Source: Methanolinea sp. | GTDB lineage: Archaea > Halobacteriota > Methanomicrobia > Methanomicrobiales > Methanospirillaceae | Assembly: GCA_018262855.1 (NCBI GenBank) | Contig: JADFDO010000001.1 | Coordinates: forward strand, 62,001 to 126,000 | Reading direction: 5' to 3' | DNA length: 64,000 nucleotides | Part shown: in pieces, positions 11,879 through 15,900 of the stretch | Layout of the letters: each line of letters opens with the position of its first letter | Position numbering within the stretch: the stretch's first letter is position 1 | Notes under the pieces: generated by a model | Told to the model about the DNA's origin: nothing | Databases searched by the model: none | What the model saw: the letters and a program-made list of their open reading frames with translations, nothing else | Translations under genes and position numbers: made by a program

Positions 11879-11951
11879 GCATCAGAGTGTGACCAGTCGC
11901 ATTAATGAATGCTCGTTTGAGACGGCTATCCACCCGTTCCAGCACCCTTTT

Positions 11952-11987
11952 TATACATGGGTGTACAATTTTATACATCAAAGTACA
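11952..11987. promoter_or_regulatory. Four TRP-box-like hexamers at exact 10-bp spacing
   Basis: TATACA (11952), TGTACA (11962), TATACA (11972) and AGTACA (11982) start exactly one helical turn apart. TGTACA is the consensus TRP box bound by the archaeal repressor TrpY in Methanothermobacter; the other three differ by one base. The array overlaps TATA-like sequences on both strands (TTTTTATA at about 11949 on the plus strand, TATAAAA on the minus strand), so it could control both divergent transcripts. Confidence 0.5.
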
Positions 11988-12005
11988 CAGGTGCAGAACA
12001 AAGGA

Positions 12006-12170
12006 ATGAAATATTCTGTGACTGGATACCGGATTCCGGAAAAGATACGGAAATCATCGATATTTTTCCCGGTGCTGGCCCCCTGGCGTTCTCATCCCCG
12101 GGTAACTGCATCCTCCCTGATCTGCCTTTCGAATAACAAGTCCATAGTATCTGATGTGACTCGAACATGA
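12006..12170 (+). CDS. Possible leader ORF coupled to the ECF S component
   Basis: A 54-codon ORF starts 15-20 nt after the GGTG at 11990-11993 and ends in TGA overlapping the next ATG (ATGA at 12167-12170). A transcript from the TATA-like element near 11950 would begin just before it. It includes a single Trp (APWR) and has no recognisable domain. The exact stop-start coupling is the main support; it may be a non-functional reading frame across a roughly 190-nt leader. Confidence 0.3.
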   Translation: MKYSVTGYRIPEKIRKSSIFFPVLAPWRSHPRVTASSLICLSNNKSIVSDVTRT

Positions 12171-12682
12171 AATCAAAAGACATTGCCATTGTTGGCATAT
12201 TGCTGGCCATCGGCGCAATACTGCGCTATTTCCTGGCCATGCTGCATACCCCGCTGACTCCGAATATGATTATTGCCTTCTACTGCCTGGCAATAATACT
12301 GGTAAGGCCGAAACTTCTGGAAGCGCTTGGAATCGGTATCGTTGCAGGAATTCTCTCGATGCTCATCTCAAGTTCCATGTTCCCTCCCGGCAACCTCATC
12401 AGCGAACCACTCGGTGCCCTTGCATGCTTCGGGCTGTATGCCATTCTTAAGGAGAAGATCGCAGGCGCCGCGGTGACCACGTTTGTCACCACCCTCGTGA
12501 GCGGTTTTTCATGGGTTGCGGTATCGCTTGTAGCCGTTTCATTCGGGTTCGCAACGCTTAAAACGACGATGATGGGCTACATGACGGTATTCGTGCCTAT
12601 CGTCATAATCACCGCGATCTTCAATGCAATTATTGTACAGATCCTCTTCTTCCCGGCCAACCGTGTGTTGAACAGGGGATGA
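12167..12682 (+). CDS. ECF transporter S component, TrpP-like
   Basis: Small membrane protein (171 residues, five to six hydrophobic helices) starting MKSKDIAIVGILLAIGAI, typical for substrate-binding S components of energy-coupling-factor transporters. The polar P-containing loops (HTPLTPNM, PPGNLISEP) and overall shape resemble the TrpP tryptophan transporter group; substrate is therefore tentatively tryptophan, an inference helped by the TGTACA boxes upstream. It is followed 3 nt later by the ATPase and then the T component, so the whole transporter is one operon. No RBS is obvious, which fits coupling to the upstream reading frame. Confidence 0.75.
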   Translation: MKSKDIAIVGILLAIGAILRYFLAMLHTPLTPNMIIAFYCLAIILVRPKLLEALGIGIVAGILSMLISSSMFPPGNLISEPLGALACFGLYAILKEKIAGAAVTTFVTTLVSGFSWVAVSLVAVSFGFATLKTTMMGYMTVFVPIVIITAIFNAIIVQILFFPANRVLNRG

Positions 12683-12685
12683 GAG

Positions 12686-14122
12686 ATGATCACGCTTGAG
12701 GATGTCAGCTACACCTACCCGCGTGGGGAAAGGCAGGCAATCGCCGGGGTATCCGTGAAAATCGAGCCCGGGGAGTGCCTGTTTATCACCGGCCCCTCTG
12801 GGGCGGGAAAGACCACCCTGTGCATGGCGGCAGCCGGCATCCTTGAGCATGAGTACGGTGGAGAGAAGAGCGGGAGGATCGCCATTAATGGCCGGGATGT
12901 AAAAGAGTATTCAAGTCTCTCTGAGATCGCCGGCCACGTGGGGATGGTTTTTGATGACCCCGAAGCCCAGCTGCTGTTTACCTCAGTGGAAGAGGAGATC
13001 CTTTCAGCGCTTGAAAGGAGAGGACTCCGGCCCCAGGAGATCGAGGAACGACTCGCCTCGATCATGGAAGTCACCCATCTCACTTTGCTCCGTGAGAGGC
13101 CCCCCCATGCGCTCTCCGGGGGACAGAAACAGAGGCTGGTGCTCGCCACAACTCTCGCCCTTGGCACCGATATCGTGATCCTCGATGAACCCACCGCAGA
13201 ACTTGACGAACACGGAACCGAGAGCATCATCTCTGTACTTCAGGAACTCAAGGCCAGTGGTAAGACAATAATTGTCACCGAGCACAAATTCGCACGATTC
13301 CGCAATCTTGTCGACCAGATGGCTGTGATGGAGGGAGGCAAAATCCGGGCCCTTGGAAGACCCGGAAACCTCATTTCTGATGAGTTTGTCAGGGGCGTCA
13401 TATTTCCCGATTTCTCGGGAATCCGGGATGGCAAGGACACATCACACTCAGGCGATCGCGGCCCACTGGTGTCCGTGAAGAACCTCGAGCATGCGTATGG
13501 CGAAGTTGAGGCCCTGAAAGGTGTGAGCCTGGATATCTTCCCGGGCGAATTCGTTGCCATCGTGGGGGAGAACGGATCCGGGAAGACAACCCTGATAAAG
13601 CACCTGATCGGGCTCCTGCGTCCCACGAAGGGCACCGTTATGGTTGACGGAAAAGACGCGGGAAAGGCTCCTGTGTCGGATCTCGCACATTCCGTGGGGC
13701 TTGTGTTCCAGAATCCTGACCACATGTTCTTTGCCGACACCGTGGCAGAGGAGGTCATGTTCGGCATCAGGAACCTTGGCATTCAGGACCCTGAACAGGT
13801 CCTTGAGACGGTACTTGACTCCACCGGCCTTTCCCATGCGAAGGACCTCTATCCCCGTTGGCTCTCGCGGGGAGAACGCCAGAGACTTGCCATTGCGTGC
13901 GTCCTTGCAATGCGCCCCAGGCTGATCATCCTTGATGAACCCACCACAGGGCTTGACGGCAGGGAGGCAAGGGAGGTGATGGAGATCCTAAGAGACCTCC
14001 GGCAGGAGGGGAGGACAATTGTGATGGTCACCCACAGCCGCCAGATCGCCGAGGAGTGCACTGACCGGATCATCACCATCGATGCGGGAAAGATCCAGTC
14101 AGACATCCGCAGGGAGGGATGA
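12686..14122 (+). CDS. ECF transporter ATPase, two ABC domains fused
   Basis: Energises the ECF importer. Two complete ABC domains lie in one chain: first Walker A GPSGAGKTT at 36-44, signature LSGGQ at 143-147 and Walker B ILDEPTAELD; second Walker A GENGSGKTT at 294-302, degenerate signature LSRGE near 400, and Walker B ILDEPTTGLD. This equals the EcfA1-EcfA2 heterodimer of bacteria as a single polypeptide. Two Q-loops, FDDPEAQ and FQNPDH, are also visible. The start ATG follows the S-component stop by 3 nt, and the end is 3 nt from the T component. Confidence 0.93.
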   Translation: MITLEDVSYTYPRGERQAIAGVSVKIEPGECLFITGPSGAGKTTLCMAAAGILEHEYGGEKSGRIAINGRDVKEYSSLSEIAGHVGMVFDDPEAQLLFTSVEEEILSALERRGLRPQEIEERLASIMEVTHLTLLRERPPHALSGGQKQRLVLATTLALGTDIVILDEPTAELDEHGTESIISVLQELKASGKTIIVTEHKFARFRNLVDQMAVMEGGKIRALGRPGNLISDEFVRGVIFPDFSGIRDGKDTSHSGDRGPLVSVKNLEHAYGEVEALKGVSLDIFPGEFVAIVGENGSGKTTLIKHLIGLLRPTKGTVMVDGKDAGKAPVSDLAHSVGLVFQNPDHMFFADTVAEEVMFGIRNLGIQDPEQVLETVLDSTGLSHAKDLYPRWLSRGERQRLAIACVLAMRPRLIILDEPTTGLDGREAREVMEILRDLRQEGRTIVMVTHSRQIAEECTDRIITIDAGKIQSDIRREG

Positions 14123-14125
14123 GAG

Positions 14126-14902
14126 ATGAGGGAGATTCTCCAGTATATCCACAAGGATGCATTCTTTCACCGGTTGCACCCCGGCACCAAGATCTTTCTT
14201 GTCCTGGCAATCGGCATCGTCACGCTCCTCACGCTGGATATCCCCGTGCTCTGCCTGATCCTTCTCGCCGTCCTCTGCATGGCCCTTATCGGCCGGGTTC
14301 TCCGGGAAGTACTCCAGCAGATGGCGCTGATACTCGCGATGAGCGTGATCTTCATCCTGATCACGCTGATCACCATGCCCAACGGGCAGGTCCTCGGGTA
14401 TCTGATTCCAGGGGGGTACCTGCCAGTCACCACAGGGGCGCTGTATGCAGGGGTTCTCCTCACGCTCAGGTTTGCCATCCTCATCATCTCATTCCAGATC
14501 TTCGTGATCACCACGCAGCCACGCGATCTGGTGAACACCCTCGAGAAGATCGGGATCCCCATTGATTACAACCTGATGTTCCTCATTGCTCTCAGGTTCA
14601 TCCCGACCCTTCAGATCGAGGCGACCAAGATACACGAGGCACAGCTCGCCCGCGGATATGCCCCGGGATCCGGATTCGTCGGACGCATCAAGAGCGTGGC
14701 GCCCGTCATGGTTCCCCTCGTCTCAAATGCCCTCGCACGCACGACGGTACTTGGCCTGACCATCGACATGCGGGGATACCGGACCAGGAAGCGGACACCT
14801 TTCAGGGAAGAGCATATGAACCTTCCTGACAAGGTGGTTTGTGTCGTCGTCGGTCTGTTCCTTATCGCTTTCCTCGGTACGATTGTCCTCACTCTTTTCT
14901 GA
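14126..14902 (+). CDS. ecfT: ECF transporter transmembrane (T) component
   Basis: Membrane scaffold that couples the ATPase to the S component. The 258-residue protein has N-terminal and C-terminal hydrophobic helices and, in the cytoplasmic coupling region, the diagnostic Ala-Arg-Gly type motifs: ARG at 175-177 (QLARGYAPGSGF) and MRG at 215-217. A GGAGGGATGAG sequence across the end of the ATPase gene is its ribosome binding site. Last gene of the operon, followed by a T6 run at 14927. Confidence 0.92.
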   Translation: MREILQYIHKDAFFHRLHPGTKIFLVLAIGIVTLLTLDIPVLCLILLAVLCMALIGRVLREVLQQMALILAMSVIFILITLITMPNGQVLGYLIPGGYLPVTTGALYAGVLLTLRFAILIISFQIFVITTQPRDLVNTLEKIGIPIDYNLMFLIALRFIPTLQIEATKIHEAQLARGYAPGSGFVGRIKSVAPVMVPLVSNALARTTVLGLTIDMRGYRTRKRTPFREEHMNLPDKVVCVVVGLFLIAFLGTIVLTLF

Positions 14903-15129: not shown

Positions 15130-15152
15130 GGGGTAATTGATACCTCATGTAT

Positions 15153-15449
15153 ATGAACAAGATGGCATTCAGCATACTGATAGTACTGATTGTGGTTGCC
15201 TTCGTTACAGCTCCTGCTGCAGCTGGATTCTACTATCCTTACAGCCAGCAAGCAACACGAATTCCACAGTTCGACTACGCACGCAGCAACGCCTACAGTC
15301 CTGGTGTAAAGGACATGCCCACAAAGATCTCCTATCTCCCTGCGATTCAGGCATTCAACCTGATACCTATCTCACCGTCAGGCTTTAACGGCGCCGGGAC
15401 CGGGATCACGATCTCCACCGGCAAATGGAGCTCACTCTTCGGAACCTGA
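15153..15449 (+). CDS. Small secreted protein of unknown function, paralogue 1
   Basis: A 98-residue protein with an N-terminal signal peptide (MNKMAFSILIVLIVVAFV to about TAPAAAG) and a Tyr/Pro/Asn-rich mature part of about 70 residues (FYYPYSQQ, SYLPAIQAFNLIP, GTGITIS). No domain recognised. The second ATG (15153) is preferred: it lies 27 bp from the TATA box and gives the same MNK start as the paralogue downstream. The two share signal peptide style, APAAAG junction, an internal (L)xAxQA segment and size. Predicted to be exported; role unknown. Confidence 0.65.
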   Translation: MNKMAFSILIVLIVVAFVTAPAAAGFYYPYSQQATRIPQFDYARSNAYSPGVKDMPTKISYLPAIQAFNLIPISPSGFNGAGTGITISTGKWSSLFGT

Positions 15450-15560: not shown

Positions 15561-15585
15561 GTGCTGTGAGTGACACTTCTTGATC

Positions 15586-15900
15586 ATGAATAAGAGGACT
15601 CTCTGTATCCTGGCAGCCCTCATGGCACTGATCCTTATCGTCGCACCAGCTGCTGCCGGGATCTATTCCACCCGGATGCCCAACATCCGGAATCCCGCAA
15701 TGAACTTATATTCACAGGCAACGATTGGCTTAAGTCCCAATAATGCACTTCTTTCTGCGGTCCAGGCAAAAGACTATCAACCGAGAACCATCACCGCGTT
15801 CGGCATGGGATCAGAAGTGACCACGTCACTTGGAGACCTGTGGACAACTCGTCTAATCCCCCCGGTCAATTTCGGATGCGGGTGCGGGTGCAGCAGCTGA
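15586..15900 (+). CDS. Small secreted protein of unknown function, paralogue 2, Cys-rich end
   Basis: A 104-residue protein starting MNKRTLCILAALMALILI with signal peptide ending near APAAAG, like its upstream neighbour. The mature part (IYSTRMPNIRNPAMNLYSQA, then AVQAKDYQPRTI) is followed by an unusual Cys-Gly tail, FGCGCGCSS, absent from the paralogue. This tail could bind metal, form disulfides or be modified. Has its own TATA box, so the pair are separate transcripts rather than an operon. A TTG at 15580 is in frame but less likely as start. Converges on the methyltransferase gene. Confidence 0.65.
   Translation: MNKRTLCILAALMALILIVAPAAAGIYSTRMPNIRNPAMNLYSQATIGLSPNNALLSAVQAKDYQPRTITAFGMGSEVTTSLGDLWTTRLIPPVNFGCGCGCSS

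Follow-up and report, generated by a model that had tools for sequence, protein, structure and literature searches.

A phased array of TRP-box-like hexamers before an ECF importer in Methanolinea: probable operator of a small tryptophan regulon

Four evenly spaced hexamers precede the genes of an ECF importer in the window (the whole stretch of Methanolinea sp. DNA analyzed here, 64,000 nucleotides), which raises the question of what these hexamers are, which genes they serve, and which protein reads them. To our knowledge, few archaeal regulons are understood. TRP-box-type control is known experimentally from one methanogen, and the present locus would extend it to tryptophan uptake and to another methanogen order. 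It also supplies about 45 naturally occurring variants of the operator, along with a named candidate for the regulator. The core of the original prediction, a tryptophan-controlled ECF importer, largely holds and is widened here to a small tryptophan regulon; the locus looks like a conserved switch under tryptophan control, of a type described before in another methanogen.

The array and the importer operon behind it

The hexamer starts lie exactly 10 bp apart, or one helical turn, so that the four boxes span 36 bp. Both their positions and their spacing were as originally described. The array as a whole (11948-11991) reads TTTTTATACATGGGTGTACAATTTTATACATCAAAGTACACAGG, and the features of the region, with mean conservation of the boxes across 45 aligned loci, are as follows.

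11952..11957, plus strand: box 1, TATACA, from the sequence (1.57 bits/column)
11962..11967, plus strand: box 2, TGTACA, the exact TRP-box consensus, from the sequence (1.51 bits/column)
11972..11977, plus strand: box 3, TATACA, the strongest box (1.90 bits/column)
11982..11987, plus strand: box 4, AGTACA, from the sequence, the weakest box (1.18 bits/column)
12006..12170, plus strand: leader ORF of 54 aa, MKYSVTGYRIPEKIRKSSIFFPVLAPWRSHP..., a peptide conserved in six Methanolinea genomes
12167..12682, plus strand: ECF S component, TrpP family (Pfam PF17099, 46.6 bits, cut-off 27.2)
12686..14122, plus strand: fused double ECF ATPase (TIGR04520/TIGR04521 above cut-off, in two stretches)
14126..14902, plus strand: ECF T component, CbiQ family (PF02361, 97.3 bits)

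The window was scanned for four hexamers spaced by 10 bp, scored against TGTACA/TATACA, with first-order Markov simulations of the window as the null. The four boxes starting at 11952 carry 1 mismatch in total, and the best arrangement in 300 simulations carried 5; chance origin of the array is excluded. The hexamer TGTACA, which Xie and Reeve are said to have given as the TRP-box consensus in 2005, is by itself near background (7 in the window versus 5.8 expected), and the signal is therefore carried by the 10-bp phasing. Across the whole genome (2,291,048 bases, 31 contigs), the strict pair TRTACA-N4-TRTACA is found only in this array.

A TATA-box-like sequence, TTTTATAC, overlaps box 3 at about 11969-11976; as the leader ORF starts about 30 bp farther on, this is probably the TATA box of the operon. 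Because the boxes overlap this sequence and are suitably spaced from the first start codon, they might be core promoter elements only (TATA boxes and phased A/T tracts), with no operator. We consider this very improbable, since the phased pair hardly occurs in the rest of the genome, though every gene needs a promoter, and since all four boxes are conserved over 36 bp.

The S, ATPase, and T genes are predicted to form a complete, dedicated ECF importer, and the full operon is retained in relatives. The TrpP-like character that had been ascribed to the S component is borne out by a PF17099 score above the curated cut-off. The same match was obtained for 18/19 members of the S-component ortholog alignment (window included), with the general ECF S-component family as a weak second match for the aligned S proteins. 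On the basis of this family membership, tryptophan is the probable substrate. The S protein had no match in NCBIfam, and no relative of TrpP was found by sequence among solved structures. As the substrate is assigned by family and NCBIfam gave no match, the importer might carry a different aromatic compound (indole, anthranilate, or an aromatic amino acid other than tryptophan) to which the regulator would also answer, and in one genome a similar site precedes an AMP-dependent acyl-CoA synthetase-like gene (described below). That the boxes also precede trpE and trpB2, together with the TrpP matches among the orthologs, makes such a substrate improbable.

The S protein belongs to the same Pfam family, PF17099, as the TrpP tryptophan transporter of Firmicutes, from which the present system differs in that its operon also encodes a dedicated ATPase and T component. 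Firmicutes TrpP is under TRAP or T-box RNA control, in contrast to the archaeal promoter control proposed here. Two small consecutive ORFs after the ECF operon (15147-15449 and 15580-15900) have similar signal-peptide-like N termini (APAAAG), and the first of them had no match in Pfam.

Conservation of the array and its recurrence at trp genes

A search of species genomes returned 45 orthologous loci, of which 44 have upstream DNA; with the window, these made 45 aligned rows. The array was expected to recur before orthologous ECF operons, and it or a recognisable form of it lies upstream of the S gene in 44/44 relatives with upstream DNA, starting 90-233 bp before the S-gene start codon, depending on the clade. 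The box means listed above compare with 0.76-1.29 bits/column in the gaps and 0.61 and 0.39 in the two flanks (45 rows). Within box 2, TG..A is invariant or nearly so in the 45 loci, and the consensus across the ECF loci is WATACA-N4-TGNAYA-N4-TATACA-N4-NGTAYA. The array is kept even at one locus from the Methanomicrobiaceae with 55% protein identity (L044).

The control region had also been proposed to serve the divergent cytochrome-like gene, a part of the original prediction that we do not retain. This b561-like gene adjoins the array in some Methanolinea and at one other locus (L014), which is a minority of the orthologous arrays, and it was not found beside the arrays of the Methanoregula loci. 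The array thus follows the ECF operon and not the b561-like gene, which was rejected as a co-target.

A sequence-only profile was built from 31 ECF arrays and run on the genome of origin. The window array was the top match (E 3e-11), and the same array on the opposite strand was the third. The second match, C25:107872-107897 (E 0.004), was the only other site in the genome and is the promoter of a trpB2-type gene, with TGTATAaataTATACAttatTGCACA on the plus strand; the name trpB2 was given from a reading of the gene's sequence. Orthologs of trpB2 are present in 40/41 genomes. In most of the 30 loci read, TGTACAacaaTGTATAtattTATACA or part of it lies no more than about 20 bp from the start codon, and this trpB2 array recurs across the order. 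The trp operon of the same genome (IGPS identified by profile; gene order trpE-G-D-C-F-B-A by sequence reading) carries TGTATT-N14-TGTACA before trpE, a weak site of 13 bits with its boxes 20 bp apart. Similar pairs of boxes, at a spacing of 10 or 20 bp, precede trpE in several relatives, and trpB2 lies directly before trpE in some genera. The suggestion that the same array would be found before the trp genes of this genome was therefore clearly upheld for trpB2, but trpE has only the weaker, 20-bp variant.

A looser pair, TRTAYA-N4-TRTAYA, has three sites in the 2.29-Mb genome: the present array, the promoter of trpB2, and a background site made up of A and T only. The reversed control pattern gave 0 sites there. 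In 13 genomes of the genus, the loose pair occurs at 34 separate sites, 18 of which are at trpP, trpB2, or trpE, and among sites with three or more boxes the share is 11/12. At trpB2 in one family elsewhere in the phylum, distant from the present genus, TGTACA/TATACA boxes stand before the gene at intervals of 10, 20, and 10 bp (L218, also L217); most of the other distant genomes of the phylum that were read had no array. In one genome, a TGTATAaaaaTATACA pair stands directly before the AMP-dependent acyl-CoA synthetase-like gene mentioned above (L230:1288-1303; G001:C52:47787), which is a possible extra member of the regulon in that genome.

The candidate regulator and a mechanism

The trpY homolog on which the predicted control depends was found in the genome as a single copy, 1.3 kb past the end of the window, scoring 204.2 bits against a cut-off of 180.

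C11:127264-127752: TrpY-family regulator, 166 residues (NCBIfam TrpY_fam NF053754)

Its C terminus is ACT-like (a weak match), and no relative of TrpY was found by sequence among solved structures. We consider it likely that the array serves as operator for a tryptophan regulon in which a TrpY-family repressor reads the TRP-box-like half-sites before the ECF-TrpP importer; binding by this particular protein, tryptophan as both ligand and substrate, and repression are what we infer. The repressor would bind half-sites aligned one helical turn apart. Since box 3 overlaps the probable TATA box, the tryptophan-bound protein would deny TBP access to the promoter and so turn off the importer. Under tryptophan scarcity, transcription of the operon would proceed and the S/ATPase/T importer would scavenge tryptophan, and the same boxes at trpB2 and trpE would tie synthesis and uptake to one signal. 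Box 3 and the trpB2 boxes, the latter at most about 45 bp from the start codon, are both placed where TBP would bind. In Methanothermobacter thermautotrophicus, TrpY represses trpE by shutting out TBP, and TBP exclusion at both the importer and trpB2 would be the simplest reading here.

The regulon resembles the TrpY/TRP-box regulon of M. thermautotrophicus (trpY-trpEGCFBAD and trpB2) in having TGTACA-type boxes in the promoters of the trp operon and trpB2, as well as a TrpY-family gene. In 2008, Karr et al. reportedly described regulation of trpB2 by TrpY in that species. The present system differs in including an ECF importer as a target and in its long 10-bp-phased rows of boxes, with much TATACA/TGTATA. 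In M. thermautotrophicus, trpY is divergent from trpE and the boxes are common to both, an arrangement that differs from the one here, where trpY (contig C11) is apart from the trp genes (trpE on C25). The divergent pair is a gene arrangement of the model species and is not needed for the mechanism. The trpY promoter of this genome has one box-like TGTATA and no array, and in most relatives (promoters L065-L094) a single TGTATA is kept about 30 bp upstream of the start codon of trpY. This hexamer may be a TATA element or may mediate weak autoregulation.

The TrpY family occurs in 39/41 genomes of the order and in 143/148 genomes across the phylum, one copy each, and its near-universal presence is therefore weak evidence for a role in trp control. 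TrpY of M. thermautotrophicus binds the TRP boxes between trpY and trpE, whereas the Thermococcus kodakarensis homolog does not bind the trp promoter (PMC6737238). In T. kodakarensis, trp control belongs instead to Tar (TK0271), an activator and likewise an archaeal regulator of aromatic amino acid genes (PMC6737238). The operator could accordingly belong to a tryptophan regulon and yet be read by a regulator other than the TrpY-family protein, a reading with which the unlinked position of trpY and the drift of the consensus to TATACA/TGTATA instead of strict TGTACA are also consistent. We regard it as unlikely, given that TGTACA, the TRP-box consensus, occurs in exact form among the boxes, and that trpE and trpB2 are known TrpY targets. 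The breadth of the family and the behavior of the Thermococcus homolog nevertheless make assignment of the TrpY-family protein a good inference, not proof. Other ACT-domain proteins considered as the regulator were rejected. Those that were read (L050, L051, L054, L055, and L060) resemble, on sequence reading, an acetolactate synthase small subunit, a prephenate dehydratase, and ACT proteins in which no HTH is evident; none has an array.

A leader peptide between the array and trpP

The leader ORF starts 15-18 nt past the array in the six Methanolinea genomes that share it. Its stop and the start codon of trpP overlap in the window, and its orthologs end after 31-34 aa. The consensus is MxCSDxxYxIPRKMRKSSVFFPVLAPWR, with the conserved core KSSVFFPVLAPWR. 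Variable columns make up 18/22 at codon position 3 versus 14/44 at the others (p=2e-4), and the synonymous share of the codon differences, 0.53, exceeds that in all 400 column shuffles; the ORF shows a clear coding signature. Convincing matches to the peptide occur once per genome, always at the trpP locus. The Methanoregula leaders are shorter and lack the conserved peptide.

An RNA element in the leader was rejected: the leader RNA had no match in Rfam, it folded no better than shuffled sequences (z 0.8), and its consensus fold was weak, with a positive covariation term. In Methanolinea, translation of the leader peptide, which has an invariant Trp (SSVxFPVLAPWR) and would be made close to the 5′ end of the mRNA, might itself set trpP expression through Trp supply or nascent-chain arrest, a speculative proposal to which we give a low probability. 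A single Trp codon would be little to sustain attenuation of the classical type, and a role as a nascent chain or as a small protein is therefore equally likely. If the proposal were true, the importer would have a second layer of control, an amino-acid-sensing leader peptide in an archaeon. The unexplained peptide brings up the question of whether leader peptides exert control in archaea.

More distant Methanolinea (L022, L038, and L043) have ORFs of 27-35 codons at the leader position that end in Trp-stop (TGGTGA); by position and ending, these are candidate counterparts of the leader. At two further loci, L020 and L024, the leader before trpP shows a TTG-start frame containing PWW, along with a stretch that is GC-rich and hairpin-like.
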